The position numbers and the translations under genes were made by a program. Of a stretch of 64,000 nt of DNA, positions 9,318-64,000 are shown in pieces. The notes beneath the pieces are model-generated. The model was given only the letters and a program-made list of their open reading frames with translations, was not told the origin of the DNA and did not search any database. Source of the DNA: Nymphaea colorata (lineage: Eukaryota; Streptophyta; Magnoliopsida; Nymphaeales; Nymphaeaceae); the NCBI RefSeq assembly GCF_008831285.2, contig NC_045140.1, forward strand, positions 13,016,505 through 13,080,504, read 5' to 3'. Positions within the stretch are counted from its first letter, which is position 1, and the number at the start of each line of letters is the position of its first letter.

Positions 9318-10346
9318 ATGGACCAGCGAAACTCCTATCTCTTATCCTCCAGTTTTCCCTCCTAACTTATCTCCCAAAAACTGAATCACAACAACTATTT
9401 GACTTAGAAACGTCAAATAGTCCCATTTATTAAGAGCCATCGACTCTATGGACATATCGATGGCACCACTCTAGCGCCTCCAAAGTGCATCAACAGTGAA
9501 GTGAAGAGGATTGTAGCGGCAGATCAAGTTGATGGGACTTCAGCTGGGACTGAGATCAGATTTGAGTATGAAACTCTTACTGAAAACAACCCTGAGTATG
9601 AAGTTTGGCTGGCTCATGACCAGTCCCTTGTTGCCTACATTACTTCTACTCTATCAGAGGAAGTATTGAGAGGCGTTGATGATGATTTAACAACCCTAGA
9701 GTTGTGGTCTATGCTTGCCACGATGTACTCTCAAGTATCGGAAGCACGATTTCTACAATTAAAAAGGCAGTTTCAGGACATCAAGCACAGGACGCGTACA
9801 GTTTTGGAATACTTGAATGAAATAAAAAATGTAAGCGACCAGCTTGCTGTCATTGGATATCTGGACAGCAACAAGGACAAGGTGCAGCAAGCTTTAAGTG
9901 GACTGGGAACAGATTTTGACATATTTTGCACAGCTTTGGAAGTTCTACCTGTCCTCCCATCCTTTGAAGATCTGAAGGCCAAGTTATTTCAGCATGAAGC
10001 TAGTCGTGTACAGCGACAGAACTTGATTCCTTCCAACAGCCACAATGTACTGATTACAAAGACACACGCCCTGCAAGGGAATCGCACCCGTCCTTGGACT
10101 CCTCAGGCAAGAATGGGAAGAGGTATTCTCCCAACACCACCAGGCATGAATACTACATCTACCACGCCTAGAAGGGTTCCTACTTGCTTCTATTGCAACA
10201 AAAGAGGGCATGTAAAATCAGAATGTTGGCACAACCCTCAGAACAAAAATAACCAGATCAGGCGTGAGAACAAGGCAGTAGCAGGGTCAGCTTCATCATC
10301 ATCCGGCTCAAATGGGACATCAAATATTTCAACAGACGTGCAATAG
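9318..10346 (+). pseudogene. Gag polyprotein part of Copia B
   Basis: The ATG at 9318 opens MDQRNSYLLSSSFPS. A TAA replaces a CAA-type codon, then LISQKLNHNNYLT is followed by TAG where related Copia has TGG. From 9501 the frame is open for 281 residues, with AHDQSLVAYITSTLSEEVLR, a helical gag core, and a CCHC zinc knuckle CFYCNKRGHVKSEC (about 10187-10228) that binds template RNA. The two early stops look like C-to-T/G-to-A changes, as expected from methylated DNA. It ends at the TAG at 10344. Confidence 0.85.
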
Positions 10347-15765: not shown

Positions 15766-16852
15766 CCACCAATTCCAGATAGGTAAAGAACCATTGTCGT
15801 TATTGGGGCTCGATAACCAAATTGGCTCGATTTAAGCCGTCAACAAGGACTTCTGGCCAGCCCAAACCTACTTTGTGTTAGGCCTGATGCCCAGCCTTGG
15901 GTGCCCTTGCTTTTCTTGTTTAATGGTATTCCGATGGCGCTATTGAGGTGGACGATGGACTAGATCCTCTCTTGAATCGGTCTGCCTGAAGCCGAGCTTC
16001 CAAAACGTGTCTGTTGATCGAGGGTGGACTCCTTCCAACCCCATAAGCCAACCTGCTCCTCCACCCGTTCACTCCATCTAAGACAATCAATTAAGTCTAT
16101 CTGTAGCCTCCGACGTGAGTCCCCGTGATTTACTTGTATATGTGTGAGTGTGTGCGCGCATGTGTGCGTGTGCAGGTGCATGAAGCAATTTCGGCTCTTC
16201 TTAATTTTTCTTTTATTGATTCCTTTCGTCATAAGTAATTTGTCTATTCCAGTTTGGTTAAATTTTTATTATTGATGCAATATCCGTTAAATCCTTTATT
16301 TGGGTGCGCTAATGCTCCACATGAGAAAACGTGGTATGTTTCCGTTGATTCTTTTGTTAAGATTATTATGATTTATTTGCTTAGTTGATCTAATTAATGA
16401 ATTCTCCTTTCGTACTTATTTCCCTTGCAATTTTGTTGACTCGTGGGGTTTACAATCATCAACGTCACATTGGCTGTGGTGTTACTGCAATTGAAAGGTT
16501 AGCACCTCCTTTGTTGACGGATCAAATTGGGATTGGATATCTAATCAAATTGATTCCAAAAAAGCTAGATGTTCAAAAAAAAAACAGAGATTTGTTGTTA
16601 CTGTCATAAGTAATGACATATACTTGTATAAAAAGTTAAATAATTTTTTAGATTTCTTTTCTCCAATCTTCATCATTTTAAGGTGAGAAGAATAGTTGAA
16701 AAAGAGAAAGAAAAGAATAAACTAAGAGATGGGAAGAGAAAACAGGAGAAACATGTGCTTGTATGTGATAATTTTTCAGAACAGACCATGTTGTGAAACT
16801 ATCATGTTTCAATAGCTTATTGGCTTTTGGAGACGCAGAAATAAATTGCATT
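15766..16852. other. No gene recognised; possible hAT-type remnant at 15805-15898
   Basis: TTGGGGCTCGATAACC ... TAGGCCTGATGCCCAGCC at about 15805-15898 resembles the ends of the GGGCC-rich hAT-like islands (inverse of GGCTGGGCATCAGGCC), but no target duplication is visible. A (TG)n-rich stretch is at 16139-16175. The rest is AT-rich without coding signal. Confidence 0.3.
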
Positions 16853-19675: not shown

Positions 19676-20984
19676 ATGGCAAAAGAAAATTCGAGATTGT
19701 AATGCGGATGGCCGAGGAAAACTATTACACCAGTTATTCGAATTCATAGCGACACACATTTTAATTCAAACTTAACAGACTAACTGCCCTTTCTTTTGTA
19801 ATTACAGAGTTTTAATTAGAGTTAATGGATAATGGTGGGCCTAATTATTCTACATTTCAGCTTTAACTCCAAAAATAGTCCTTTTATTAATTTTTAAAAG
19901 ATTGTACGCTTCGAGACAAAGAAGGTGTGTTATAAGGCTGATATTTATTAAACATTTCTTGGTTTTATTTTAGTGAATTAACTTTGTGAAAAGTGGATCT
20001 AGTGCCTTGCAATTGACACCCATGTACCTGTAGTGAAAGGGGCATGCACCCATGCTCTATGATCCATATCTCCTATGAAATAAGCAAGTGCACTGAATCA
20101 TCCGTTTTTGGCATTCCATGTAAAACCAAGCGCTGACCTGAATCTTAGTTAAATCATAATATTGATCTACCACATATGAAAAAGATTTTGGTCCAGGAAG
20201 TTGGATTTTTTTTTTTTTTTTTCTGTTTTTCGTGTTGGCATGTAGGAAGATAGTCTACCAAATTATCCTAAAACTATCGAAATGTCTACATTGAGATCCA
20301 TCCAATCCATCTCGACAATGGCTTATCAAAACCAGTTTACGATCCAAATTTTGGTAAAGAACGGTGCTTCAAGCTGGTCTTTTGCATCTTTTTGCGTCTA
20401 CGTAAACCGCTATGGTGAAAGGCAAGGACATTTCCAAAATTTCTCATAAACTTTTAGTATTTGTTGAAAAGGACACAAGCTCCTTAAATCTTTGGGGTCC
20501 AATAAACAAGCGATCTTTCAGATAAATTACCATACATGAGCAGTTTATTTCCTTTGAAAGATATTCTTGTTTTGGCAAATGATGCATGACAATGGCCTGT
20601 CACCAACATGGAAAAATTAAAGAGCTTAAGAACTCGGTTTTGAGTAAAAAAATTAGTTGTTTAGCATTAGAAAAAGTAGAAATCTAGTTTTATTTGTTTG
20701 AATGATAATTGAAAGCTAGTGGTAAAAGTGGTACTAAGGCTACGATTGTTTTTGCTTGGATCTCAAATATGAGGGGACCTCAAATCCACAATGGAACAAA
20801 CGGTGGATCTCAGCTTCTCCCTACAATGTAGACTTCAGAGCCACGCCTTTGAATTTCAAATACACAGAGGTGACCAAAGGTATATTGAAAGACCTCGTTT
20901 TCTTGATATTTGTTCTTTTTTATAAGGTTTTCAAGCAGCAAAATATGATTCTTGATTTTAAACATTGCATTAAGAACTGAAAGA
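19676..20984. other. No feature recognised
   Basis: AT-rich sequence with a poly-T run at 20202-20222 and no coding frame I would defend. Confidence 0.5.
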
Positions 20985-21234
20985 TAAGGGTGGGCATCGG
21001 GCCGGGCCGTCAGGCCGGTGAGCCTGGCCCGGGCCCGGCCGATAGCCTGGGCCTGGCCGAGCCCGGCCCATTTGAAATTTAAAAATAATTTTTTTAATTA
21101 TAAAATAAATTTTTAAAATATAAAATATATTTAATAATAATAAATATTTATTTTTAAAACAAAAGAAATTAAAAAATAATAATCTAAACTGGCCGGGCCG
21201 GCCCGACGGCAGCCCGGCCTGATGCCCAGGCCTA
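20985..21234. mobile_element. Non-autonomous hAT-like element with GGGCC subterminal arrays
   Basis: The left end is TAAGGGTGGGCATCGGGCCG. The right end, inverted, is TAGGCCTGGGCATCAGGCCG. Flanks CTGAAAGA (20977-20984) and TTGAAAGA (21235-21242) match at 7 of 8 bases, the duplication size of hAT elements. Both ends are packed with GGGCC/GGCCC while the 120-bp core is almost pure A/T. The ends match those of the complete hAT element at 34167-39564. It contains no gene; the long P/G/R-rich open frame across it is compositional. Confidence 0.75.
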
Positions 21235-22872
21235 TTGAAAGACCTCAGCTGATGAATCAAATTAAACAAAAGTAAGCTAAGCAAAGTTCCAAAATAAAAT
21301 CAAATTTAAAAAGAAATGTTTAAATCAAAATCAAGCCAGAAACCAGCCCTCAACAACCTAAACCTTGTTGTGGAAGTGTCTGGCGCCAGTGTTATTACCT
21401 GCTAGTGTTAGTTAGAACCAGTACATAACCATAACTACACCGGTATAGATGTAATATTTTTGGTGACTAAGAGTTAGTTGCGGTGGCGCATGCCTCATGT
21501 GCACCTCAGGTGCCAGCTTATCGCTCAAGTCTCTATTTTTCTCTGTTGTGTGATTAACGATTTATCCTTTTCAATTTTCCTATTGTCTAGTTATATTTTT
21601 GTTAACGTACTTTTGTCTTTGTTTATTTTTTTTCTCAACATCATAGTAGAATTTAACTAATGTTGGATGAAATCAGTCAATGAAGGATTTATTGAACACT
21701 GTTTGTTGAATGAAAACATGGAATTTAGAAAATCTTGGATAAAATCATAAAAGTTAGTGAATTTATTGAACTTGTAACCATTAGATGAAACAGGTGCTCC
21801 TATATGTTGCTTAAATTAAAAAAGTAATGCTTTTTCTTTCATCTGCAATACATAAAAGATATTAAATGTTTCATAATCTTTGATATAAAATTGTCAATAC
21901 CATCTAATTAAATTTTATGCCTGCACAACAAATGACAGAGCAATGTCAACGTTCATTTCTGATTCTGGCGTGAGAAAAAAATGCATAGTGCATGTTGTTT
22001 TTTTTTTTAAAATAAAAAATTGACATGATCTTTGTGGGATATTATGTACTATACTATTTTTACCCTATAACTTAGGCTTCAGTACGCATCGCTTAGCTAT
22101 GCTTCCCTTCACAAGATCAGCACTTTGTTTCGCTTTGTTGCACCAATCAACATTGTATACTACCATGAATTGCTGGCTAAGATTTGAAAAGACACTCAAA
22201 TCAATAAAATTGAGCAACACCCAAATCAATAAAATTGAGCAACTGTCCTTAAACTTATATGAAAAAAAGTGCATGGTAATATTAATAAGACTATGACAAT
22301 AAATGAACCGAAAATTTGAGAAAGCTTTTTACCATATTCATGCTTATATGTACGAATTACAAAATGACCCATGTGCATACCAAAATGATCAACCTTGACT
22401 TTATAGTTTTTTGTCCAAAATAAAATTCAAATGCAAAGCAATTAGAAAAAAACAGTACCAAATTATATTTAAAGGCCTACTCGTTTTCTTGGTAACTGTT
22501 TTTTCTATATGGCTTTCAAGCATCAAAATAGGATTCTAAATCTTAAACTTCTCATTAAGCTGAACTGAAAACTATAGCTCCCGATTTTGACTTACACTTG
22601 TCTAGTAGTGTTCTAAACTATATTTTATAAATATAATCTTATAGGTGAATCAAAGATGTGAGAAAACAGGCCATGCCTGGCCACCGTTGTTTGAGGCACA
22701 TGCACACCTCAAGTGCGCCTCTCTCACACGCTCTCTCTCTCTTTCTCTCTGTTTTGCATTGACGCTTGGATCTTTTCACTTTTTTTATTTTATAGTTATA
22801 TTTTCTTCAACATATTTTTGTTTTGGTTTACTTTTTTCTCAGTCCATTTAGCTAACGTTGGATGAAATGAGT
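21235..22872. repeat. Two diverged copies of an unidentified repeat
   Basis: The segment 20897-20980 plus 21440-21690 (CTCGTTTTCTTG...TTTTCAAGCA, then CTCAGGTG...TAATGTTGGATGAAAT) is matched by 22480-22580 plus 22660-22875 (CTCGTTTTCTTGG...CTTTCAAGCATC, then CTCAAGTGCG...TAACGTTGGATGAAAT). Order and orientation are conserved. No ends or duplications were found. The hAT-like element at 20985 interrupts only the first copy. Confidence 0.45.
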
Positions 22873-31740: not shown

Positions 31741-32600
31741 TCAACTTATGACACTCCTCCATAATAAGTGCAGGGACAGTTTCTTTCTCGGCTCTAATGC
31801 TATGTTCAGCAGCTTTGCAGGCATCTGAAAGTTTTTCAGCAAAATTGTGTGTTGTAGCAACTGTGGACTCTTGTTTCTGTTTGGTGTTTTTTTGTGATTG
31901 GAAGGATATTCATGTAATTTGAAGCATTTTTCTCTAGTGTGTCCAATTCCTTGACAGTAGGTACAAAAGATTTGTGCACGCCTATTGTTTCTGGTTTTAC
32001 TGAATTGAGTGTTCATAGTAGCTAGACACGTGTTTTCAGTAGATGGCAGAAGGCAGGCCTCCCTTTGTTTTTCTTCCTGAATGACTAATGAGTATCGCGG
32101 TAGGGGATCTATTAGCAAAATCTGTCCTCGAATGGTACTATAGGTGTCGTTTAGCCCCATTAGGAATTGTACAACTTTTTCTTCTTGTTGTTTTTCAATA
32201 AGAACCTTCATCACTCCACATATGCAGCTTGGTAACGTATCATAAGAAGACAATCATCCCAATATGACTTTAACTTTGTGAAATACATTGCAACCGATTG
32301 AGATTCTTGTGTGTGCCTATTCATAGCATATTTTATCTAAAACCTTTTGGGTGCACTGCTCTGTGTGAATTTGTCCTTCAAATCCATCCAGAACCTCACA
32401 AGCCTTGGTTGCATAAATGACAGTTCCAGCTAATTCTTTAGACAATGAGTTTATTAGCCAAGATAATACCATGTTGTTGCAACGCAACCAGTAAATATAT
32501 TCAGGTTGAGAAATTTATCCATCAATGAATCGTAACTTATTTTTTGCGGCTATGGCCATTGACATGGACCGACGCCATGTTGAATAGTTGTCTCCATTAA
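31741..32600 (-). pseudogene. Gag of Copia D, broken
   Basis: The N-terminal part reads LVSQHLNGDNYSTWRRSMSM and AIAAKNKLRFIDG (32520-32610). A middle part follows with stops, then LIEKQQEEKVVQFLMGLNDT, TIRGQILLIDPLP and a CCHC zinc knuckle CTYCQGIGHTREKC (about 31920-31965). This is the long-gag Copia type with FLMGLND and PLP motifs. The first residues are separated from the rest by the hAT-like insertion at 32624-32799. Confidence 0.78.
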
Positions 32601-32623
32601 GATGTTGGGAGACAAGCTATGGG

Positions 32624-32799
32624 GCTGCCCAGGCACCCAACGGGCTGGGTTCGCTACCCAAGCGCAGCCCATTATTGTGTTAGGCCAGGCCGTGCTTGAC
32701 ACAATACCAGCCCACCGAGTCAAGAGCGTACCTAGGCCCGAGCCTGTGCTAACTGAGTATCAGGTACACGATGGCAGCCTAACCTGATGCCCAGGCCTA
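32624..32799. mobile_element. Non-autonomous hAT-like element inside Copia D gag
   Basis: The right end, inverted, reads TAGGCCTGGGCATCAGGTTA, close to the element at 20985 and the complete hAT element. The left end, GCTGCCCAGGCACCCAACGG, is more diverged. The flanks GCTATGGG and ACTATGAG agree at 6 of 8 bases. The interior is rich in GGCC/GCCC motifs. The surrounding gag frame resumes correctly on both sides, so this is an insertion. Confidence 0.55.
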
Positions 32800-34158: not shown

Positions 34159-34166
34159 CTACCATA

Positions 34167-34400
34167 TAGGCCTGGGCAACGGGCCGGGCCAGGCCGGCCC
34201 GGCCCGTTTATGTGATGTCGTTAATGACCCGCAAGTGGATCGGGTCGGCCCGCTACCCGATTATTACCGGGCCGGGCCGGGCTGGGTCATACATGTCTGA
34301 AGCCCGGCCCGACCCGTTTTGTTAACTGCCGGGCCGGGTCGGGCCGAGTAGGGCCGGGCCGGGTCGGGCCGAGTAGGGCCGGGCCGGGTTGGGTCTGTTT
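34167..34400. repeat. Left subterminal GGGCCGGG array of the hAT element
   Basis: A dense run of GGGCCGGG, CGGCCCG and GGGTCGGGCC motifs on both strands. It includes a tandem unit GGGCCGGGTCGGGCCGAGTA at 34331-34350 and 34356-34375. In Ac/Ds and other hAT elements, short motifs repeated just inside the ends bind transposase. That role here is inference from position and density. Confidence 0.7.
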
Positions 34401-35391
34401 GGTTTTTAAAACTAAGCATTATTTACTTAAATGCCAAAATTGTCAAGTTGCACGGATATATGCTTCCTAATAATGGATTCAGTCAATCCTAATTTGTATT
34501 GTATCCATTTTGTTTAGTATCTGTAATTAAACAAAAGCATCATAACACCAATTTGCCTCTTGACAACTCTGATCGGGTTGGGCATCAATCAGACACAGGA
34601 AAGAAGAAAGACAAGCAAGGCATTTGATATAGAAACCTTGACGGTCAAACAAAGTGACATTCTCATTCATTAACCAAGTGTCTGCATCAGAGCATATCCC
34701 CAATGTCAGTTACGCATTACAGTCCTTTCAAACAGTCTCCTCATTTCTAAAATCATCTTGAAGAAACTGCAAGAAATAACAAAGTGGCAAAATCATCCAA
34801 TGGATGACAGAGTCATATCACCACAGCACATCAAAGAGAGATCATGGTTATGTTTTGCATCTAAGTGGAAGGAAGAACCTGCACACCATTGAGCTGTTTT
34901 CTTTTGTATACTGTTGTCATTACCACTATATGGATGAGAAGCATTAACCTCAAGCATTGCATTGTCAAGCATTTTCTCATACATCAAAGTTAAACATAGA
35001 GAACGACAAAAACTGAATCTACAATTAGAACTCAAAAAAGAATGATAGCTTCAATAGGGAGTTCATGGTTGTAGTTCCTTACAACAGCAACTACAAAATC
35101 ATTTGACAAAGGTTTTGTTGGAACAAGAACCGGCTTCCAAAAATGCCAAAGCAACATCCAAATAGCAAAGCCTAAACTATTGCAACATGAAAATTAAAGT
35201 AAACATCTTCAAAGTCCATCAACAACCTGCATATGAAAATCAAAGTAAATGTCTTCAAAGTCCATCAGCAACCTTGAAATGTCCATCTACAATTTAACAC
35301 GAAAAAGAAATGTTAATAAAAATTAACAGGTGCTTGCCTGCATGGAATAATAAGAATGCATTAAAAATTACCGTGATAATCATGCATTTGA

Positions 35392-37478
35392 TTAACTTTT
35401 CTCATTTGAATGGTGCTCTGCATCATGAGAACTGTAACACATGTTAATTTAAGCACACTAGTATGTTAATATGTAAAATAAATTACAAAATGGATTATGA
35501 ACATCTTACCTTTCACCCAAGTTGTGTGCATCACGAATCCAACTCTGTGTGCATATCAATGATTCAACATTTTCAGGCGTAGTTGAGCATCGATAATCAT
35601 TAAGAGTTCTTCCTACTATACTGAATGCAGATTCTGAAGCAACTGTAGATACAGGAATGGCTAATATATCTCAAGTCATCTTTGCTACAATTTTATATTT
35701 ACTTTCATTTGTCTTCCACCAAGATAATATGTTGAAGTCCGCATTATGTGCAATTTCTTCCATCGGATCCATCAAATATTTGTCCAGATCTGTGTGAGCC
35801 ACTATAGGAGAGACAAAGCTGGAGTATGCTTTGAACCTACATCTAGCCACACTTCTATACTTTTCTGTTGCAATCTTGGTACTAGTGTATGCATTGTCCC
35901 TTTGCATATTACTTGTGTCATTATCATCATATATGTTTTTGTATTCAACATACAAATCATGAAAGATCTTCTCTACAACTTCATATTTTACCATTGCATC
36001 TGGTTTATCCAAATCATCAAGCAAATACTTTAGGTATGACAACTTGAACCTAGGATCCAAAACAACTGCAATTGCAAAGAGAATATTGTAGCTCTTGAAG
36101 TATTTGTCAAATTTTTCTTGCATTTTGCAAGTCAATGCCCTCATATGCTCATTTGATGTTCCACGATGCCTACGCAAAAATGATGGTAAATTGATAAAAC
36201 TTTTTCAAAAACAAGATTAGATGTTACCTGCTTAGAGGTAGAGAATAGATTTGTTGCATCATAAAATATCTTTAAGAACTGACATAAATCAAATGCATGA
36301 GACTACTCATCCTCAGAAGGCAAACATGCATAACTAGGATCACACGATGCCAAATGTTGAAAGACATCTCTGAATAACAATGCATCTCTCAACATTATAA
36401 ATGTAGAATTCCATCGAGTAGGAACATCATAGTTTAAACTTTTTTTCTCATCCAAACTCATTGCCTTTACACATTGTTTAAAAGCATGTAGTCGTTTTGG
36501 TGATCCCCTTACATATTTAACACTGTCACGAATTTTTGAAATTGTATCAACCATATCATTCATACCATCTTGAACCATAAGGTTTATAATATGTGCACCA
36601 CAACGAATATGAAAATATTTCCCTCTCAATGGAAATGACATATTATTTTTTCTTTCTAAGGTCCTTCTTAGTAAACTGATCACACTATCATTTGCTGAAC
36701 AGTTATCAGCAGTAATAGAAAACAACTTAGCTTGAATGTTCCACTTAGTAGTAATGCACTCTGATAAAATGTCACTTATACAAATTGCATTATGTGGTGG
36801 AGGCACATGTATAAAACTAAGTATATGAGAGTGCAATTGCCAATTTGTATCAATATATTGGGCTGTCAAGCATAAATATCCTAACGTCTGTTGTGATGAC
36901 CACATGTCAAACGTCAATGAAACCCGCTGCACATGGTTACTTAAAACTCCTTGATATCGCATTTTTTCAGTCTTGAACATTGACTGAACCTCTTTTGTAA
37001 GTGTTTTTCTAGAAAATGGAATAAATCTTGGATTGCAAGCCTTTAGAAGATCGTTGTGATATTCATATTCAGCAAAACTAAAAGGAAGTCCATGCATGAT
37101 TGTACACTTAGCCATACATTTTTTTATGGCCTCCATATCAAATTTGTGTAGACATAAAGAAGCTACACCAGAATCATTAATTCCAACTGACAAAGTTCTT
37201 TGTTTTCCATGAGCAATTTGTCTTTTGGCACATGTATCTCTATGTAGTTTCAAGTGGCTCGTACCATTAGAACTATGTCCACCTAATCGTTCTCCACAAT
37301 GGTTGCATTTTGCAAACTTGTTTCCCTTATACTGTACTAATGTAAAGTCATTCCATACAACTGAAGTTCTTTTCCTCTTGGATTCAACTTCCTTTTCAGT
37401 TGATGAAAACGATTCATTTTCCTCTGTATTTGTCAATGTCGTCGGACAGTATTCATCATTCCCAACGCTAGAAGACAT
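35392..37478 (-). pseudogene. hAT transposase (BED zinc finger, hAT-C dimerisation), three lesions
   Basis: Exon 1 is 37478-35510 and exon 2 is 35431-35392, with GT..AG ends, finishing SSHDAEHHSNEKS and TAA. A BED-type finger is near residues 38-85: VVWNDFTLVQYKGNKFAKCN, then CGERL and THLKLHRDTC-like spacing (TSHLKLHRDTC). The core has LTFDMWSS and SITADNCSANDS, positions of the hAT RNase-H-fold acidic residues, then DVPTRWNSTFIMLRDAL. The C-terminal dimerisation domain reads YKSYNILFAIAVVLDPRFKL and PVSTVASESAFSIVGRTLND. Lesions: TAG for TGG at 36303-36305, loss of one base in an A run at 36176-36180, and TGA for CGA at 35671-35673. It would excise and reinsert elements with matching ends if intact. 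Confidence 0.9.
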
Positions 37479-39379
37479 AATTTACCAATTGAATGGAATT
37501 CAAACAACCTAAACACATGAAATGATTCAACTCTTGAGCTAAAGAAAAGGCATAAAACAAGATGAATATCTTTCAGAGATTAAGAAATACCCACAATAGT
37601 CAAGATCACAAGTGGCGAATATACTAGGAGGGAGGACGTTGGTGTGTAAGTTAGTGCAACTTATGTTTTGATAAATCCACCTACATCAGCCACAAAATTT
37701 GAAGTTTACTTTCTTTCCACCTTTTGAGTGGGTAAAATGGTATTATGTATATCACCTATTGTGAAGTAAATTATTTAAAACAATAAACAATAGCACTACA
37801 TTGAAAAGCCATGACACAAAATGCGGACCTCGTTTGTTGCTAAACGGGCCTTTTCTTTGGAGATTTCTTCAAACTTTCCTTGCAACTCAAGTACTGCAAA
37901 ACAAAACATAAAAAAAAAAGAATAAGGCCTTTGTCTATTCACCAAGAGATTCACCGAGAAAAGATTAGCAATATCACCGGAAATATATTGAGTTTATATT
38001 GCAAAGCATGTCCAGACATTGGGTCCATGGTTTCATGGCCAAACACTACGAACTACATGACAACCGGGGTTTCAGTTGGTATGATGTCTAGGCATTTTAG
38101 TGTGTCCAAAAGGGAACAATGACACTAACACTGAGAGCAAATGATAGAAAGTCTAGCAACATGAAGCAATTAGCATAGGAAGTAAATGCCTACTAGAAAG
38201 AAGATTTGTTCAAACAAATTCTAGGGCCAAGAATGCTTCACGATCTGTACAAGGCATCTATGATTCTTTCTTTCTTTGGGAAGGAGGGTGTAGCTTGGCG
38301 AAGTTTTCTCTTACATTGCATATGACCACGATAACGATATGCCAAGAGACTATAGCATTTCATTTTCATTGATAAAACTTAAGTTGTGGAAGTTAGGCTT
38401 TGCATAAAAAAGGAAAGGAAAAACATCCTTATCATTGGTATTAACTCATACCATATGTAACAGCTGATTTTCCAAGCCCTCAAGTTTTGCTGAGGCTTTT
38501 AGCTCACTTCAATGAAGTAATTAACCATATATTGACAAGCAAGAAAGGAGGTCAGCCATAATCACATAAATAATAACGGCCGGCCAGCAGCTGCCAGTAA
38601 AAGTCTGAATCCTTACTGAAGTTCTAACACTTACAGCAAGACCTGTGGTGATGATAAGCAGGTTCAGCAAGATGACATTCATGATAAAGAAGCAATTTCC
38701 ACAAAATGGCAATAAGAAAGCTGCTTGTTCCTTTTAGTTACTGTACTTTAAGTTTAAGTTAACATGACAGACGACCTGATTTTTCAGATACTGCAAGTGG
38801 GTGTAAATGCACATGGCATGCTACCTAAACACCGGGTATCAGAAGAAAAGCAAGCGGCAGAAAATGTTATGCTGAAAAACCCAAAAAAATGTAAAACCAA
38901 CATTATAAATGCATCAAAGGAGCGAGCAAGCATGGTAACAAGAAGAAACACCAGCATAGAAGAACGAAACGTATTACCTTACAAAGTATTCCTTCTTTTC
39001 AACAAGGCCAAGGAGGTGCTTTTCTTTATTGGAAATCTGTTTATCGCTTCCTCCCTTAAGAGCAAGAACGGTGTTTGAATATGACTAGAAACGAGAAAAA
39101 ACAAAGGAAAGAAAGAATCGCAAGTAAGTATTTGGGGGAGGGTGAAGCACCGACTAATGTAAAAGAAGATTTGAAGAGGAGAGAAGAGAAAGGGGGAAGA
39201 AAGCTAGGCCAAGAAGATTACTGTTCACAGCTAATGTTGTGATGAAAGCAAGCGACGACGGTGACGGACCAGCAGTGCGACGGTGGCGACGGCGACGAAC
39301 GGTGGTCGGTGGATAGGCACAGTGAGCAGCGCAGGCAAAAGGGAAGAGAATTAGCAAATAGCAATTAGGGCGAGAGTTG

Positions 39380-39564
39380 AGACTCGACCTAAGCACAACC
39401 GGGTCCCAATGGGCCGCAACTTAAAACAGGGACCCGGCCCGTTTTTAAGTCGGGCCGGGCCGGGCGCAACGGGTGAAGGCCCGACTTTCGCAAATCGTGG
39501 CCCGGACCCGTGCCGGGCCGGGTACCGGGTACCCACCGGTGACCCGGCCCGTTGCCCAGGCCTA
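39380..39564. repeat. Right subterminal GGGCCGGG array of the hAT element
   Basis: Motifs GACCCGGCCCG, GGGCCGGGCCGGG and CCGGGTACCGGGTACCC lead up to the terminal CGGCCCGTTGCCCAGGCCTA. It mirrors the left array. R/G/P-rich open frames across it are compositional. Confidence 0.7.
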
Positions 39565-39572
39565 CTACCATA

Positions 39573-44528: not shown

Positions 44529-47259
44529 TCACATGTGACAACTTTTTGGTGCCCTCCAAGTTGGGGGTCTACTCCTCTCCAATGTGGTCTGCACAGTGAA
44601 GTTTCTCCAATCGTCAAGGGTGAGTCTCAAGTCACTTAGTTTGTTCTGAAGGCCAATGCAGCAGTTTGCGTGCATTGTACAGACCTTGTTCATGTCTTTG
44701 CTAGGCTCGCAGAACCCACCAAAATAAGCAGTGTCAAGAAATTTCATCTTCAGACCAATTTCGTTGGTGAAGCTGTTCTTTTTAATGATGTCCAGCACAT
44801 CTTGGTCATGGAGAGCAGGATAGAACTTTCCTGAGTTGTACCAAAATTCATAGAACCGAATTGTTCGGTGGTTTGATTTCACATATTTAAAACCACCATT
44901 CACAAAGTTGTTCACGTCTGATGAATTGCCATTAAATTTGTCGCATGCTATCTGGAAATCTGCATCTGGGAAGAATTGGTGGAATGGATTTCTGAACCAC
45001 ATTATGTCTGCATCCTGGAAAAGTTAAAATAGATCAGACAGAAGCCTTTCATTTGTAAGCATATAAGTCAGATGATCACTGCGTGAAAGAGACGCTGGGG
45101 CTTAAGAATGAATAAAAAGAACCCTTGATTCTAAGAATTGAAGCGTTGAGTCCATCTTAAACCTTCTTATTATCTTCCAGCTTTTTGTGTTCTGCTTTAA
45201 TTTCAAAATATGTCACCTGGATGGTTATGACACAAATCTTTAAGTTGGACCATCAAACCTTAAGATATTTCGTTCTACTTGTGTAATTGGTTTATCTGTT
45301 AACTATAAAAATGAAGTTTTTTGATGTATCATAGGATTTTCCTTCACTAACAAATGAGAACAAATGGGGTTTGTGGTTGCTGGAAATGGTCCAGCCAAAT
45401 GCAGAGGAAAAAAAAAATCCACTTTTTGGTCATGCATCCAACAACCATTTTCAAAGTATGAAGATTAAGCTCAAGATGTGCTGGAATTACTGTGAAAACG
45501 AAATCGAAACCCAATTCCAGAACAGTCCGCAAGAACTTGATCCTCCTCCACATCATCTTCAGGTAATCGGGTGTTCCAAAGAGCTTTTCAGCAGAGAAGT
45601 CTGTGCCTTCTGTACTGAGCAAGAAACAATGTGAATGTATTGACTCACATCTTTCGACTGAACTTTGATCCAAACAGATGATAACCAAATGGTTTAGTAG
45701 ATCGCTAGTTTGTTCTCCAATTCTGAAACTCTCAAGAAAGAGATCGATGATAGAACCAGGAGCAGCCCATGCTTTGTTCAGTGTGGTTAAGATGACTGTT
45801 CTGTTCCTCATCGCTGCTCTGTTTAATACTCCTTCCAAAATTTCATTTTGGTTGGCCTGTTCATCATCCAACATAATTAGCCATTTAGTGGGATCAGCTG
45901 ATGAGATAAATGGTTTTGATTCAGATAATCTAAATACAATAGAAATCAAATTTTGTTGCATTCAGCTCAGTTGACAACCTGAACTGTGCAGAGTCTCAGC
46001 TAAGAAAAAAGTTAGTGGGGGAAGTTCAGCCCCAAAAGTAAAACATAGTGAAGAAAAGTACTAGAACAATGTAAAATAAGCCTAAAACTGAGTTTTGACT
46101 TTGCTGAGTGAAGAGAAATGCCAAAACAAAGTAAGAAAACTGATTCCCCACAACAGTATTTGCGGGATTCACTTATCCTTAAATCTGGCATAAGTTTGAA
46201 AGTCTTGCGATACATCGCAGAGCAATTTTTCATCAGCAAGGTTCTGTTACTTCCAGCATTTCTTCTGGAAGTGTTGAAATGAATGCAACTATGGAGGACA
46301 CTAAAATATGATCAACTTCATAAAAGCACGGCAGAAATTTTTTATCAATTTAACCTCATGATGAGACGACATATTTTCGGAATTGGTAAATGGCACTGTT
46401 ACGCAAATCGTTCTCGTTTTGGGGCACGATATCAGACTCAAAGGAACAACAAAATTGCTCAAATTCCAAAGATGGTGAGATTTGTGACAAAAATTACTGT
46501 AGATTCACAGACATAAAAGTGCAGAGCATGACAGAAATCAACGGCATGGATTTTCAACCAGAATGTTTTGTTTTGTCACGATCCCTCTTCATTGGAAACT
46601 ACCAACCACTTTAATTAATGGCATGGAAAAGATCAGACTGAATTACTCTAGGGCAGCTTATAAGCTACCATAAAGAAAACTAAGAAAAGATGATTTCGTC
46701 ATTAAATTCATGTCAGAATATTTAAGAAAAAATCACAAAGCGCAAGATCAGAACCAACTTAGATATGGTTGGTCAGACAGAACAAAGAACGTTAAAATCT
46801 TGGTTCAGAGAATTTGTTCTCAAGAATAGAGAGAAGACGTCAGAGAATTTGAGGAGAAAGATGAAGCTTTAGATCTGAACGATGCACATGGTTGATGTTG
46901 CAGAAAGTAACAAGAACACCAAAATCTTGGTCGCCAAAATTTTCATACAGAGAATTGCCCATTAATGAGTTCAGAAAGGAGAGAAAAAGAAATCAACGGA
47001 TACCAACTTAAGAACAGAATCAAGAACTCACTTCCTGAGACCCCCAAAGCCACGGAGGTTCAGTTAGCCGAAGGTTGAAACTGAACTTCCAACTTGAGCT
47101 GCGCTGCAAGACGCCAACTCTTGGGACGCAGAAAAGGAAGAAGAAGCAGAAGCCTGAGGCAGTCATGACCAGAGAGAAAACTCCGAATGCATAAGCCCTG
47201 TGGTTCCTCCTCGCAGCATGACAGATCATCTTCCTTTCTCTGTGAACTTGATCTCTCAA
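44529..47259 (-). CDS. Nucleotide-diphospho-sugar transferase family protein (PF03407 type)
   Basis: Type II Golgi-membrane glycosyltransferase, by family. Exon 1 (47259-47032): about 30 polar residues, then a membrane anchor AFGVFSLVMTASGFCFFFLF, ending at a GAA|GTGAGT donor. A large exon (45897-45491): EGVLNRAAMRNRTVILTTLN then AWAAPGSIIDLFLESFRIGE, LVIICLDQ and DYLKMMWRRIKFL, ending FDFVFT at a GTAATT donor. Last exon (45014-44529): DADIMWFRNPF, the D-x-D nucleotide-sugar/metal site, then QIACDKFNG, GGFKYVKSN, FLDTAYFGGFCEPS, and a stop at 44529. A join across the last intron gives FVFTDADIMWF, as the family requires. Exon 1 (phase 0) does not splice in phase to the acceptors seen at 45897 or about 45935, so a short exon in 45940-47030 may be missing. 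No stop or shift was seen in the recognised exons, so it may be active. The sugar and acceptor are unknown. Confidence 0.85.
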
Positions 47260-53031: not shown

Positions 53032-54272
53032 CTAGAATTGTTAAAGACAAAGAAATCAATAAGAACATCATAACTTCGAATGGAAGGTCTCAAAAAGAAA
53101 CCCTACAACAAAAACTAGCGAAAACCTTTCTTAGTTATTAAAATGCCACGACCGTTTCCCTATCTGAAAATGTATACAAGTAATAAGTGTAAGAATACAC
53201 CATGACGGAAGCAAGAAGGACTGTCATCATAAAAATTCACAATGTCCTACGTAGTACAAAAACCTAATTACAATAAATTCTGAACATCCATAAGATTCCA
53301 TTTCTTTTAAAAAAGGTTGATGCTTTCTCAATCAAAAAACACATGCAATTCTAGGATTACTCCTTGGGGCAGGGTCTTCCATGCGTACTTTATCTGCACT
53401 CATCAGAGGACACATAAACGGTAAGGGTTCATTCCGTACTATATCATAGACATATTACCAATTGCCATTACATCACAGGAAATTGCAGAAAAAGAGTAGA
53501 AAGTCGTCATTCAGCCCCAAAGGTCTCTGGCTACCTCATGTTTAAAGCTGCATCTTATGGATCTCTCCAGAATGGACATTGACAACGAAATAAAAAATTA
53601 ACCGACAGGCTGCTATGTAATTTTCCCGTGGAGACGATGTCTAACCTCATTCCCTACTATAAACAGAAAGGAGGACCATATCAAACAACAACATCCACCA
53701 CCAGGATGCTGATTCTAAACCACAAACCCTAGAATCAGCAACCCAAGCAAATTTAATTAGATTCGCAGGAATCCCAATGACAGAATAATGCTAAAGACAA
53801 AGATGATTATGAATTTATGACAAGGCTCCACTTCTTGCGACCACAAGAAAACGGTTGTTCAGCCAAAAGATTACACGAAACACCAACCGCAGAAGAAAAC
53901 CTAGAAAGGAAATACACGAACATCACACGATTAAACTAATCCTTGAGAAACACTCTCTATCTACTGACCGTAAAAATTTTTTATTCCTAAATTAGACCAA
54001 GATCGACATGCAATTACCACTCTCACCTTAGAGAAAAACCGAAACAAAACAAATCCTCGAACAGAAAGCAAAAAAGTCACGAGATTACACATCTCCCATT
54101 CCTAAAAGAGGGATCTCCTTCACGCCGCTTCGGGCCAAAGAATGTTAACAGATCAAAATCGAGGGAATTAATCGGAACTTAATTGGGAGCTAAGACCTAC
54201 AAACAAGATGCCCACTGTGAGCAAGAGAGACCGGAGGAGGACTAGAGAAAGAAGAAAGAAGACGTTGAATAC
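53032..54272 (-). other. 5' UTR intron of the signal peptidase subunit gene
   Basis: The donor GGCAG|GTATTC is at 54273/54272 and the acceptor TTCTAG is at 53032, immediately before the start codon. The intron is 1241 bp with no coding frame. Introns of this kind often raise expression in plants; whether this one does is unknown. Confidence 0.7.
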
Positions 54273-54440
54273 CTGCCCAGGCCGGAGGATGATGGCGACG
54301 ACGGCTTCAGATCGGGCGCGCCGCAGAGGAGACAGGGGAAGCAGGTAGGGAGTGGTAAAGCGACGTCGACGTCACCACCGGTCGCCGGCGGAACTCGATC
54401 GGAGAGGAGGTAACGCAGAAAGGGGTGAGAGTATGAGGAG
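54273..54440 (-). other. 5' UTR exon and promoter-proximal region of the signal peptidase gene
   Basis: GC-rich sequence on the minus strand with CCGGCGACCGG and CGCGCCCGATC phrases. The exact transcription start cannot be seen. Confidence 0.45.
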
Positions 54441-57400
54441 AAAGAATGGTCCTCAATAATTTAATGCAAACAACGGACGATATGTCCGTATCGGCGTCCT
54501 TCGGTCGTGCTTCGGGTCGGTCTGATCATCGCTCGACTCGATACTTAAAAACTCGGCCCCGGTCGGTTCAAAGACTTGGTGCCTGTCCAAGCTTGAAGTG
54601 TCAGATCCCTTCTTGGACTTCAACCTTCATTTTCTAATTAAGCTTATTTTAAAATAAATTCATTAAATTTTAACAAACTAATGAATGATAGCATTATATT
54701 AATAAATGGCAATTATAGTTTCAAGCCAGGTTCTTAACCGAAAGAATCGTTTCTTTTAAGATGGGCTCAAGCTCGGTCTGACCTTGTTGAAGTCGGTTTG
54801 AGTTCGGGAAAGTTAGGCGCATCTTGAATCCATGCATCACAAATGGATCAGCAGCAGTGATAGTCCAGTTCCGGTCGTCGGTCTATAAGCAGCGACAATT
54901 GCCTCTGATGCTCCGTTCCGTTAACTGGAAACCATGGACTATAACTCTTTCATTTTTTTAGATAATTTACAACAAAACCAGTTCTCAAACTACTGTTAGT
55001 CTGTTAGGAACAATAACTTTTATACGGGGTGCATATCTTACTTTTTTAAAAAAAAAACAATGAAAATATAATAAATTAAAATTCAAAAAAAAAAAAAAAG
55101 AAGAAGATGCTATAGTAGCCGACAAAGAAGGATGGGTATAGCCGTGTGTGCCGAATCAGGATACAACACAGATATCGATATTTAAGGCTGAGATGCAGAT
55201 CCTCACGTCACGATTGGCATTGCTTATTGCAAATTAATAACTAGTCTTTTCCCCAGTAATAAGCTGCATTTGTTTCCCAGAAAAAAGGTTTTGCATTTTT
55301 CATGAAATTTACTACTACACAGGTGTCAAAGATCTTCTTTTTATGACAAAGAAAGTAATCTAGAAGTAAACCACAGACACTTACTGAAATACGTGTAATA
55401 TTTTGAGAGTCAATGAATGAAAGTGTCTTCATTCTTGTAATAAAGCAAGCTAGCAAGAGAAGACTGCACCTTCTCTGATCCCAGAGAAGATGCTTCAACA
55501 CCACGTTCCACGTCCTAAATTTATCATTGTCATAAATATTCTCATTTTTCAAAAGGTGTAAAAAAATGTAAAGGAGCAGCAAAAGGTAGCAATCTTTTGA
55601 AAAAAAAAAAAAAAAAAAACGAAAATATCGCCTCATTTCAGAAAAATGGTTTCATCGTATTCTAAATATTTTAAGAAAATATTCACATTTTTCAAAAGGT
55701 GTAGAAAAAATGGAAAATAAAGAAAAAATTGTAAAGAAGCAAAAGATGGCAATATTTTGAAAAAAAAAAAAACTTTACAACCAAAACATGGCACTTTTTC
55801 TCACTTGATAAAAGAAAAATGCTTTCACCAAATTAAACGTTTTAAAATCCTCAACATGCGATCAAAACCTCACATTTGAGATGGGACCAAAAAAAGGGGG
55901 TAGTTGTTTTCTGACGACCTCAAGTCCTCAGATCAGATCAGATCAGATCAGATCAGAGAGATCACCCCCAATCTCGATACTCGTCGGCATCGATGATCAA
56001 ATAGGTACGAATAGGAGTCCGGAAGATGGTCTTCAGAGGCGACAACCGTGTCTCCCCGACAGTTCACATGGAAGCAGAGAAATAGCAGACAGTCGGGACG
56101 TACTTGACATGCACACTCCACATAACGTTGGTGCAAGAGTACAGACAGGTACATGTTCAGCCCCCTATGCATTTTCATATCAATAATTCAGTTGAACGGA
56201 CGGACAACTTTGGCAGTTGGCACGTAGAAGACGAACCATAATGGGACTAGAAGCTCATTTCAACCAATTCCTACTCCGTCTGATGACTTGAGAAACTAAA
56301 AAAAAAAAAAAACAGAGGAAACAAATAACCCTTCGTTGAATTTTTTACAATACATTGTTTTTTGTAAACTTTATGAACTCAGGCAGGCCTTCCAAATGGA
56401 CATCATAAAGAAAAACGTTACATCATCATCTGCCATCAGAGGAAGGGAATTAGGCAAAGTATCCAAGTTTCTTCTAGCTAGAAAATGTCACCTGTACATC
56501 TGACAACATTCTAAATAAGAAGATAAAACCGAAATTAATAGTTATGCAATATGGAATAAAATGAGTGTCAGGCGCCAGTAATAGTCATGCTTGAAGGGGT
56601 GAAGACAAAATACTAAATAGTAAATTGAAACATAGCAAAGAGTCACCTGCTAGTAGAGGATGAAGTAAACGAATGTCAATCCTACCATGATATACATATT
56701 GTCACAAGAAACAACGTTCCTATAACTCCCATACCCAAAGAAACATAAGATCCCATAACTCGAACCATTGGTGACATGCCAATCCCCATAGATTAGATCA
56801 AACTTGGAGAAATTGCTGATATTTTTTCCTGGTTTATGTGTTTCCACGAGCTAGACGCTCTGTGGCACATAACTTCATCTACATATATCAATTCAGTTTT
56901 GTTTCAGAAAAAAAGTCCCAAGCTGCTAACTCTGATCCGAGTGAATTGAGTGGAGCACCCGAACTTTGTAAATATGTTTGAACAAGAAACAAACATGCAC
57001 CATTTCTAATGCGGGAAAGCATGACAGGAGTTATGGTCCTTGGGTCAATACAAATTAACCTTGCAATAGTAGTTCCCTTAGGTTGAAGAGACACGAGGAA
57101 AGAGTGCACAAAATGTTGAACATATACATTTCATCTTGGCATTCAGCAAGATTAAGTTTAAGTTTACTTGTTTATAAGACCCATCATTCATCAATTGTGC
57201 ATGTGAATGAGCTGCAAAAATGTTCCTAATCATGCAGTCATTCTTGAAGATGGTCCACGCTTGAATGACAGAATCGAGGAAACTTTATCTAAGGACACAA
57301 AATGAGCACAAATCTAAGGCGCTTTCTTCATTCATCAAATCAAAGGCATTATTGGTTTCTCCAAACGCCAAACTGCCAACCCTCTGATGGAGATATTCAT

Positions 57401-58379: not shown

Positions 58380-60919
58380 TTATTTTTTTAACCGAGGACA
58401 ATTTCGTTTATCATGTCCAGTTTGTCTACAAGTATGACATATTCTTGGCTTCCCAACCACAGTGTTTATAGAAGTACATCTGGAAGATAAATGATCAAGT
58501 TAAAACCATATCAAACACTATAACATTCGATGAATTGTTGAGAAAGAAACATGTAAAAAAGGATAAAGTTCTTACCCAACTCTTATGTTAGAAGCACATG
58601 TTTGAGAATCATGATCAGAACCATGACATGTAACAGATGTCCTTAAGGGTTTACTCTTATGAATAACTGATTCAATTTGTTTTTCAATTCCCATTGCACA
58701 TGCTTGTTTGCAATTTATGGGAGTTACATAAATACTTGAAGAAAGATCAGTTGACTGCAAGTCTCTTCCTTCTTCCCTATTAGTTGACATATTTTCAAAC
58801 GCACATGTAAATTGTTTATTAGAGCAAGGTTGTGCACTTGAAACTTCAGGAGTAATACCTTCCAATTCTGCCAAAATTTTATCAAATCTTTGTATGGCAT
58901 GTTCATATTTCTGTTGTGAATTGAGTGCTGCACTAATACACTTGTTTGCCTTTAGGCTTAATATGTGTCTCTTTACCATCAATGAATCATCACCTCCAAT
59001 TAGTTGACTTGAACAGCCCATATGATGCACTATGCCACTTCTTGCAGTTCTTGTCCACCTTTTAAGAACATAAATAGATGGAATTTCTTCAAATGATTCA
59101 TGTGTCAATATAGAAAAAATGTGGCGACATACAATCCTGGATGACTTCCATAATGAACAGGTGCAAGTCAATAGTTCCTTCAAATTCCCACTGAAAGTAA
59201 GCTCATACTCTCTGTCGACTCTCCCATGCAATTGTTTGTCAATCACTTTATATATTTTTGAATCACCATGACAAGTAAATGTGACTCTACAACAAAGTGA
59301 TTGTAGTAGTTGTTCTCTAAACATGTGAAAAACTGTTGGAGTACATGTACTCCTCAAGTGCAGCTCCATACTACCATTTGTAACTAAAGGTTCAGCTTCA
59401 TCCTTCATTTTGTGATCATATTTCAACTCTTTACGCCTTCGTTTTTTAATAGCTTCATCAAACTTTAGAATGAATTCTCCCAAAGAAGTCTTCTTATTAA
59501 CATAATTCTTAAAAAACTCATTCATACTGTCACTACGTTGAGTAGTTGACATTCATGCCATAAATGTGGAAGGCATATATGGTTTAGCCCACTCGGTACA
59601 AGTATTCCAAAATTTGACTACCCATTCACTTTCTTTCAAAGAGGGGAACAAAGTAACCAATTCACCCCATAAAGTTTTGAACTCTTGAATTTTTTCTGAC
59701 TGATATAGCCATTTCTCCCATAGATCACGAAATTCTAGATTCTTATACAACTCACTGATATAGTCCGTAACATTTTGGTATATGTGCCAAATATAATACT
59801 TTTGAATAGTATGTGGCAACACCCTCTCTATTGCGGAGTTCATAGCAAGGTCTTGATCACTGATAATAGCAGCTGGATATTTTCCACCCATTGCTTGCAA
59901 CCATTCACTAAATACCCACATCAAAGATGCTTCGGATTCATCTATAAGAAGAGCACATCCAAATACAATCGATTGGCAATGATGATTCACCCCAATGAAT
60001 GGCACAAAGGGCGTCATATAATTATTTGTTTTATAAGATGTATCAAATAAAACTACACCTCCAAAATAGTAGTAATCCTCTCGTGCTCTCGCATCTACCC
60101 AAAAACAATTACTGAATTGCCCCATCGAATCAAATTGAATAGCATAATAAAAGTCAGGATTCTCCTCTTTTTTTTTCTTAAAATGGCCTACAACATACTG
60201 ACAATCTTTTCCATAATAACTTCTGACCATCCTTTTAAAATGAACATCTAATTGTTCATCCATAAATGGAGCATTATGAAGGTCATCAGCTTCATGTGAC
60301 AAAACATCCACAACCTGGTAAGGTTTTAAACCTGAACTAATGCATTTATTTACAAACAATTCATGTTTCTCATTAAATTGATGTGCACCTTTCAATATTT
60401 TGAACTTTGATGGAGAGTGCAATTCATGATTGTGTTGTAGATATACAGAACTAATAACCCAAACCTTCTTTTCCTTTTTCCAAGAAAGGTTAACTTTTGC
60501 TGGACAACCACATCTTGTTGTAACCCTCTCTTTTTTTCCATCATTTGTTTTTCTCTTCATACCTTCTTTGTTACAAGTAAATTGTCTCCACACAACTATA
60601 CCTCGTTTTTTTTTACTTGAATACGAACATCAAATCCACTCATATCTGCATATACTCTGTAAAACTGGAAAGCATCTTTATCACTTTTAAACTCCATGCC
60701 AATTGAAGGTGTACAATGAATAGGTATAGATGGAGTATACCCTTCAATTTCATTATCAAGTGAAATGCTTTCTTTTTCGTTTCCTATAGATTCACAATCA
60801 TGGTCAAATCCTTGTTCAATATTCTCCATGAGATTCACAACATGTGCATTACCACTACTTCCAACTAATCCAACATTACTATTTTCATCAACATTACTAG
60901 GTTCATCTCGAAATAGCAT
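58380..60919 (-). pseudogene. FAR1-RELATED SEQUENCE (FRS)-like protein, two disabling lesions
   Basis: FRS proteins are transcription factors derived from Mutator-type transposases. Order on the minus strand: FAR1 DNA-binding domain (GMEFKSDKDAFQFYRVYAD, about 60700; RCGCPAKVNLSWKKEKKVW, 60500; YLQHNHELHSPSK). Next is the MULE-type core (FWVDARAREDYYYFGGVVLF, D-T-S-Y-K near 60040; IISDQDLAMNSAIERV near 59840; WHIYQNV) and STTQRSDSMNEFFKNYVNKK (59545). A SWIM finger CTCSLWKSSRIVCRH follows near 59140. The last exon (58479-58380) adds a zinc knuckle CHTCRQTGHDKRNC after a 96-bp intron with GTAAGA..CCAG ends. Lesions: one base lost in an A run at 60606-60614, shifting the frame before the RGIVVWRQF segment, and a TGA at 59553-59555 where the family has Gly. 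The start at 60919 (MLFRDEPSNVDENSN) is a guess. Confidence 0.85.
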
Positions 60920-62055: not shown

Positions 62056-64000
62056 GTGTAAAGATTGATGACACCCAGTTTGAATAATAGATGATAAAAA
62101 CCTTCTTTTCCTAATGCTTTCGTAAATAGGTCTGCCAGCTGGTCTTTGCTTCGAATGTAGCATGTGTGTATTGTCCCCTGAAGCAATTTTTCTCATACAA
62201 TGTGACAATCTAGTTCGATATGTTTCGTACGCTCATGAAAAACTGGATTTGCAGCTATATGTAATGCTGCTTGATTGTCACAGAAAATTGTTACTGGATG
62301 TAGTTGACGTACTCCAAACTCGTTCAATAGATATTTCAACCATGTTATTTCGCATACCACATTTGCCATAGATCTATATTCAGCTTCAGCAGAGGATCGT
62401 GATACTGTTTGTTGTTTCTTTGACTTCCAAGATATGGGAACTGGGCCAAGAAACACACAATAACCAGTGCCAGATCTTCGCGTTTGACGGCAGGTGGCCC
62501 AATCTGAATCACAAAAGGCACTTAACTGCAAATTATTCTCCTTACTCATTAGGATGCCTTGGCCTGGATTTTTCTTGAGATATCGAACCACTCGAAGTGC
62601 CGCTTGTAGGTGAGGGATGCGTGGTTGTTGCATGAACCTGCTTAGGACATGTACAGCATATTATATATCTGGGCGTGTAATGCTGAGGTAGATTAATCTC
62701 CCAACAAGCCGACGATATTGTGTTGGATCCTTGATGTAGTCTCCATGATCTTCGTCCAACCCATGTTTTTGTTCCATGGGTGTTTCTGCTGGTTTTGCTC
62801 CCAAAAGACCTGTTTCATGAATAATATCTAGTGCATATTTTTGTTGTGAGAGATATATACCTTTTGAAGAACGGGCAATTTCAATTCCCAAAAAATACTT
62901 AGGTTTGCTTAAGTCTTTCATGTGGAATTTTTGACATAAAAATGATTTGAAGTTATCAATTGCATCCTTCACGTTTCCTGCAATCATTAAGTCATCAACG
63001 TATACAAGAATGACAAGAAAAACTTTATCATGCTTGAATGTAAAAAGGGAGTGGTCTGCTTTAGATTGCATAAAACCATACTCTTTCAGAGCAGTTAAAA
63101 GCTTGTGAAACCAATTTCTTGGAGATTGTTTTAAACCGTAAAGAGATTTATATAATTTACATACTTGATTCTCCCCCTGTTGAACATACCCTTGAGGTAT
63201 TTTCATATAGACTTCCTCATGCAAGTCACCATGCAGAAAGGCATTATTGACGTCCATTTGACACATGACTCAATCTTGATTAGCTGCTATAGTGAAAAAG
63301 GTACATACCGTGACCATTTTTGCAACTGGGGCGAAAGTTTCATTATAGTCCAATCCCTCTTGTTGAGCATACCCTTTGGCCACCAGCCTCGCCTTGTAGA
63401 CCCATCTGAATTTAGTTTAATTTTATAAACCCATTTGCACCCGATTGGTTTCATCCCGATTGGAAGTGAAGTAATAGTCCAAGTCTTGTTTTCTTGTAAG
63501 GCGCTAATCTCACTATCCATGGCGTCTCTCCATTCCTTATGTTGAACTGCTTCTTCAAAGGTTTGTGGCTCAGACTTGGAAACAAGAGATGTGAGAAACG
63601 CAAAATGATTACTAGAAAACCAATGAAAAGAAATAAAATTTCTTATAGGATACCTCGTTCCTTGTTGATAACCTGATTTGGAGATGTTTTTGGTTGAAGG
63701 TGAGGTAAGGAGTGAACATTGGAAATCTTTCAACCATACCGTTGGTTTTCTTATACGGGTAGATCTCCTAGATACTAAAGATGGATTTGGATCTGAATCT
63801 GGATCAAACGAAGATGGGTTTGGTTCATTTAAAGATGGATCTGGATCTAGATTAGACAATGATAGGTTTGGTTCATAGGTTTCCTGATCAATATTTTCTA
63901 GGTTAAGGGGATTAGAAATGGACGTGTCATGCCTTATAGCTTGAGTAGGATAGATGTCTAGATCATAAGGAATGGGTAAAGCAATACAGTTTTCATCAAC
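62056..64000 (-). pseudogene. Copia 'F' pol (RT and RNase H), runs off the window
   Basis: Pre-RT linker: RSTRIRKPTVWLKDFQCSLL (63760). RT: AVQHKEWRDAMDSEISALQE and [17 protein letters not shown] (63440-63560), MCQMDVNNAFLHGDLHEEVY (63200-63266), YKSLYGLKQSPRNWFHKLL, ILVYVDDLMIAG (catalytic YVDD, about 63000), RRLVGRLIYLSITRPDI. RNase H: FCDSDWATCRQTRRSGTGYC (62480-62540), SSAEAEYRSMANVVCEITWL, FCDNQAALHIAANPVFHERT then KHIELDCHIV. Lesions: a frameshift near 63415, TGA for a Trp codon near 63275, TAA after TRPDI (62661) and a shift near 62190. The linker has an acidic D-P-D-S/N-P repeat. The rest (integrase, gag, 5' LTR) lies beyond 64000. Confidence 0.85.

Follow-up and report, generated by a model that had tools for sequence, protein, structure and literature searches.

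Motif-dense GC-rich blocks inside the ends of a water-lily hAT transposon are probable binding sites for its transposase family

RESULTS

A hAT transposon with well-preserved ends and a disrupted transposase gene

The DNA analysed here, referred to below as the window, is a 64-kb stretch of contig NC_045140.1 of the water lily Nymphaea colorata. It carries an element of 5,398 bp (34167-39564) whose identity as a hAT transposon is firmly supported, and whose GC-rich subterminal blocks we consider to be probable binding sites for the BED finger of the transposase of its family. As expected for a hAT element, it is flanked by an 8-bp target duplication, CTACCATA, of which the left copy (34159-34166) and the right copy (39565-39572) agree in 8 of 8 bases, and it is bounded by short terminal inverted repeats at 34167-34191 (plus strand) and 39540-39564 (minus strand), which pair in 24 of 25 bases and are identical over the outermost 22. 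The exact duplication and the inverted ends identical over more than 20 bp, both described in an earlier note on this DNA, are thus confirmed. The terminal sequence of the element is TAGGCCTGGGCAACGGGCC, and the end type of the family can be written as TAGGNNTGGGCA. The repeats start with TA, like those of Dart; the hAT consensus listed in a table of rice elements starts with CA (PMC4423477). The length of the target duplication, 8 bp, and the hAT domains described below led us to reject an assignment to Harbinger, for which the same table gives a GG(G/C)CC repeat and a 3-bp target (PMC4423477).

The transposase gene lies on the minus strand and is broken into several stretches. The first open stretch (36303-37481) encodes the BED finger and the beginning of the catalytic domain; it is closed by a stop at 36303-36305, past which its frame continues (36180-36302) until a frame change near 36180-36204. 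The next open stretch (35671-36204) covers the hAT-like RNase-H region together with the first portion of the hAT dimerisation region, up to a second stop at 35671-35673, beyond which lies a C-terminal stretch (35506-35670) with the conserved SESAFS region. The domains zf-BED, hAT-like_RNase-H and Dimer_Tnp_hAT all scored above the Pfam cut-offs, spread over two frames, in agreement with the BED/hAT-C transposase proposed earlier. An autonomous hAT element has an intact transposase gene; the two in-frame stops and the frame change indicate that this copy is not autonomous, despite its exact duplication and near-identical ends. The earlier description of the element as complete is therefore correct for the ends but not for the gene. 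No captured gene was found in the four further frames of the element that were compared with Pfam (E 0.01). Part of its non-coding DNA (35187-35274) consists of about two tandem copies of a 46-bp unit.

The closest transposases among the matches listed (120 of 343) were from N. colorata, with 91% identity along the full query, and from N. thermarum; in public databases the relatives carry RICESLEEPER-like names. The first stretch and 44 relatives picked by hand from the 120 listed were combined into a profile of 45 sequences, which matched the Hermes transposase from the BED finger to the C-terminus (E 2.5e-31). The catalytic residues of hAT transposases are D, D and E. In the profile alignment, the regions of the first D and of the C-terminal E align with Hermes and are present in the pieces encoded in the window, while the second D was not cleanly aligned. 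The fold predicted for the first stretch had a mean predicted local distance difference test score (pLDDT) of 83.6 and a predicted template modelling score (pTM) of 0.58.

GC-rich subterminal blocks with a repeated motif

Directly inside the ends lie two blocks that differ strongly in composition from the rest of the element. The left block (34167-34397, 231 bp) contains 70% GC and the right block (39396-39564, 169 bp) 69% GC, compared to 36% in the body of the element and 37% in the window, so that the GC bias against an AT-rich body, pointed out earlier, is evident. The word GGGCCGGG occurs 17 times as an exact match in the window, versus 0.14 expected from whole-window shuffles, and these matches are distributed over the left block (10), the right block (5) and a small element near 21 kb described below (2). 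Since a GC-rich composition alone might yield such words, each block was also compared with 1000 shuffles that kept its own dinucleotides. The left block with its 10 copies still exceeded the shuffles (mean 0.35, maximum 4), and so did the right block with 5 (mean 0.27, maximum 3); hence a short motif is repeated above chance inside both ends, and this subterminal motif is unusually GC-rich. The core CGGGCC is found at 33 sites in the window: 20 in the two blocks, 7 in the small element, 1 in the rest of the large element, and 5 in other parts. The blocks and the small element, which together account for about 1% of the window, thus hold 27 of the 33. When CGGGTC was included and both strands were counted, there were 18 sites in the left block and 11, dispersed, in the right block, compared to 5 and 2 at the left and right ends of the small element. 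The earlier note had called the arrays solid. The enrichment above shuffles holds in both blocks, but this word is too strong: when up to one mismatch is allowed, (CGGGC)n-like 10-mers span 53% of the left block and 40% of the right. GACCC occurs 11 times across the two blocks.

The sites have a regular position relative to the terminal repeat, starting at bp 14 and 19 in three of the four ends of the two elements. Further inward, the left block shows a strong period-5 signal (z 7.3) and includes a 25-bp unit that is repeated in tandem 2.6 times with 97% matches (34328-34393), whereas the period-5 signal of the right block is weak (z 1.6). Inverted motif pairs adjoin the left terminal repeat (34178-34208), where a 13-bp stem with a 5-base loop pairs bp 12-24 with bp 30-42, an arrangement that none of 300 shuffles equalled. 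At the ends of the small element the inverted pair near the tip is weaker (10 and 1 of 300 shuffles as good), and at the right end of the large element it is absent by this measure (243 of 300 as good). As the pair is clear at some ends only, it is not a general feature of all ends.

Related ends and GC islands in the window

The window was scanned for end pairs of the form TARGSSTGGGCAWC, allowing at most three mismatches per end and four per pair, at most two mismatches in the duplication, and a distance of at most 8 kb. This returned two pairs, the large element and a gene-less element of 250 bp (20985-21234) which combines hAT-type ends and GC-rich sites with a core rich in AT. The latter is flanked by CTGAAAGA (20977-20984) on the left and TTGAAAGA (21235-21242) on the right, which agree in 7 of 8 bases. 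Its left end contains five CGGGCC sites, a number reached by a fraction of 0.001 of the shuffles, and about 50 bp of its right end align with the left end of the large element at 80% identity. A blastn search of the large element against the rest of the window (E 0.01) gave this right end as the single match. Altogether, three matches were found between the two elements, all confined to the ends, and we therefore take the small element for a relative and not for a simple deletion derivative. The earlier note had named array-only loci, without such ends or duplications, as evidence against its proposal. In the window, all three clusters of at least three CGGGCC sites fall within the two elements bounded by ends and duplications, which favours the proposal.

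Two solo hAT-type ends were found on the minus strand. The one at 32782-32799, which matches 17 of 18 bases of the right end of the small element, is a probable relic whose partner is unsettled, and the one at 15882-15899 (15 of 18 bases) is a possible relic for which no partner was found. No transposase frame was noticed at either. When the stretch at 32.6-32.8 kb was aligned locally to the small element, the score of 48.5, which compares to a maximum of 43.5 in 200 shuffles, came from only 33 bases at the end.

Using a threshold of at least 60% GC in 100-bp windows, nine GC islands were found. Three of these are the two blocks of the large element and the left block of the small element, a fourth (39221-39362) belongs to the large element but not to its block, and a fifth (32599-32746) adjoins a solo hAT-type end. 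The remaining four show no link to hAT ends and contain 0, 0, 0 and 1 CGGGC words. The earlier suggestion that the arrays explain the GC islands is therefore borne out for three of the nine, but not for these four. The island at 54225-54441 has 60% GC, a CpG observed/expected ratio of 1.23 and one CGGGC word, and shows no link to hAT ends.

Public sequence searches and other features of the window

The exact 20-base end was found in one stretch among viral contigs and in two stretches of bacterial genome bins; these matches were taken as chance, because no array was present in the 201-301 bases around each. Scanning viral contigs with the transposase profile gave 19 pattern matches, among which no relative was confirmed, and when the whole element was searched against plasmids, nothing matched. 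Elsewhere in the window we noted a MULE/FAR1-type transposase (58572-60629, minus strand) in two adjoining open stretches with MULE and FAR1 domains and a SWIM finger slightly below the cut-off, and two copia-type stretches, a gag on the plus strand (9408-10346) and a reverse transcriptase on the minus strand (62661-63269). A nucleotide-diphospho-sugar transferase (glycosyltransferase) stretch at 45347-45961 shares 98% identity with N. colorata across 61% of the query.

DISCUSSION

The GC-rich blocks as probable transposase binding sites

The transposases of Ac, Herves, Tag1 and Hermes are described as binding short repeats inside the element ends (PMC3260210, PMC3143072, PMC10368747), and it is because these systems employ short subterminal repeats that we take the CGGGCC and CGGGTC units, beginning at bp 14 and continuing inward, for likely candidate BED sites of this family. 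The units, often paired or inverted, would be bound by the BED zinc finger at the N-terminus of the transposase of this family, and a series of sites from base 14 inward may let several transposase subunits assemble at each end before cutting. The present copy makes no intact transposase and would be mobile at most through enzyme supplied in trans from elsewhere. A CG-containing target has precedent, since animal and fungal BED-Hermes domains that derive from hAT elements are reported to favour often CGG or CGC words, and for the four hAT proteins that worked in that study, the motifs match their own subterminal regions (PMC8097297). The CGGBP-type hAT proteins compared there resemble our element in this respect, but they are animal and fungal, some prefer AT, and the likeness is between their published preferences and a motif preference that is putative here.

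Among plant elements, Dart/nDart of rice has a 19-bp terminal repeat of a similar type, reading TAGAGGTGGCCAAATGGGC when reversed (PMC2956540), and, as found here, an 8-bp duplication and gene-less relatives with common ends (PMC4423477); its repeat differs in sequence from that of our element and is of the same type only. Ac/Ds of maize likewise makes 8-bp duplications, and is reported to require about 200 bp of each end and to carry a short, repeated subterminal motif that is bound cooperatively (PMC3260210), but its motif is AAACGG and its repeats are 11 bp, whereas the water-lily element has CGGGCC/CGGGTC as putative sites and 22 identical end bases. For Tag1 of Arabidopsis and Herves of Anopheles, binding of the transposase to short subterminal motifs is likewise described, for Tag1 as cited in the Herves paper (PMC3143072). 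The Tag1 motifs include TGACCC, which recalls the GACCC frequent in our blocks, while the other motifs differ (PMC3143072). The parallel with housefly Hermes extends to the protein, as the profile match covers the BED, catalytic and C-terminal regions, and to the position of the sites just behind the repeat. The BED fingers of Hermes are reported to cooperate in binding a quasi-palindrome at bp 11-27 (PMC10368747), and the inverted pair at the left end of our element occupies bp 12-42. The Hermes site, AAG(T/C), is unlike the one proposed here, and our inverted pair is clear at some ends only.

Several observations weigh against this interpretation. With the first stretch alone, a sequence search at E 0.001 found no solved structure, and the only structural match of its predicted fold at E <= 0.001, Hermes 2bw3, had a modest TM-score of 0.38. 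In the BED recognition helix this copy has a Leu where Hermes has the base-contacting R70; an Arg stands at the aligned position in 23 of the 45 alignment rows. The right end of the small element is the exception among the four ends in having no sites at bp 14 and 19, and with two CGGGCC sites (0.097 of shuffles) and no GGGCCGGG it is not above shuffles. The solo ends at 32799 and 15899 have few intact GC-rich sites, and the stretches behind them gave no blastn match to the element (E 0.01). They look like decayed copies, but would also fit weak counter-evidence, and their site content tells only mildly against BED binding. Some hAT proteins are reported to favour AT-rich words (PMC8097297). 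Finally, in Hermes the left-end motifs past 50 bp are described as dispensable as sites, although some feature there is still required, and the right-end repeats were not seen bound (PMC10368747); by analogy, inner parts of the 170-230 bp blocks may be surplus.

Alternative explanations

The dispensable inner motifs of Hermes (PMC10368747) would also suit a reading in which only the few sites near the tip matter and the remainder of the blocks grew by slippage without function, as tandem-duplication surplus. The 25-bp unit with its near-identical copies shows that the left block has in part a tandem structure. On the other hand, both blocks are enriched in the motif, the right one without clear periodicity, and Ac and Tol2 are reported to require 150-200 bp of their ends (PMC10368747, PMC3260210), which makes such surplus, in our estimate, a very unlikely account of the blocks. 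It is quite unlikely, too, that the blocks are chiefly host-side or structural, such as a promoter- or CpG-island-like region, a methylation target, or a G-quadruplex- or hairpin-forming stretch, with the transposase reading the terminal repeats only. The composition would allow this, since CG density is 11.7-11.8 per 100 bp in the blocks versus 1.4 in the body, CHG density is 10.1-11.7 versus 2.2, the CpG observed/expected ratio is 0.97 and 0.99 versus 0.51 for the window, 11 of the 12 G-quadruplex motif starts of the window (overlapping ones counted) fall in the two elements, and single strands of four stretches form more stable folds than their shuffles do (z -4.2 to -5.0). However, all these CG, CHG, CpG, G-quadruplex and folding signals follow from the motif itself, which produces them. 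Moreover, the sites are present at both ends and also in a gene-less element, where a promoter would be useless, and their positions beside the repeat agree in most of the ends.

The RICESLEEPER-like names of the relatives could further suggest a domesticated SLEEPER-type host gene instead of a transposon. SLEEPER genes are described as being without hAT terminal repeats or duplications (PMC8616336, PMC3499209), and would be expected to have an intact frame. Here, repeats and duplication were both found and the frame is broken, so we give this possibility almost no credence.

Implications

Beyond binding by the BED finger itself, one may speculate that in this hAT lineage of an early-diverging flowering plant, CGG recognition and inverted, CCGG-dense arrays form methylation-sensitive landing pads, where host CG/CHG methylation would toggle transposase assembly, and where selection for binding would hold CpG near its expected frequency while the element decays. 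We regard this extended scenario as unlikely. None of the titles and abstract openings found names GGGCC-type subterminal arrays in hAT elements, which is no evidence of novelty. For this water-lily hAT family, the analysis provides a concrete motif, CGGGCC/CGGGTC from bp 14 inward, that is open to testing, and the small gene-less element with like ends is of help to annotators, who may recognise some of the GC spikes of AT-rich plant DNA as the ends of transposons. If it is true that the motif is the site of the BED finger, CGG-type recognition by hAT transposases would extend to plants.

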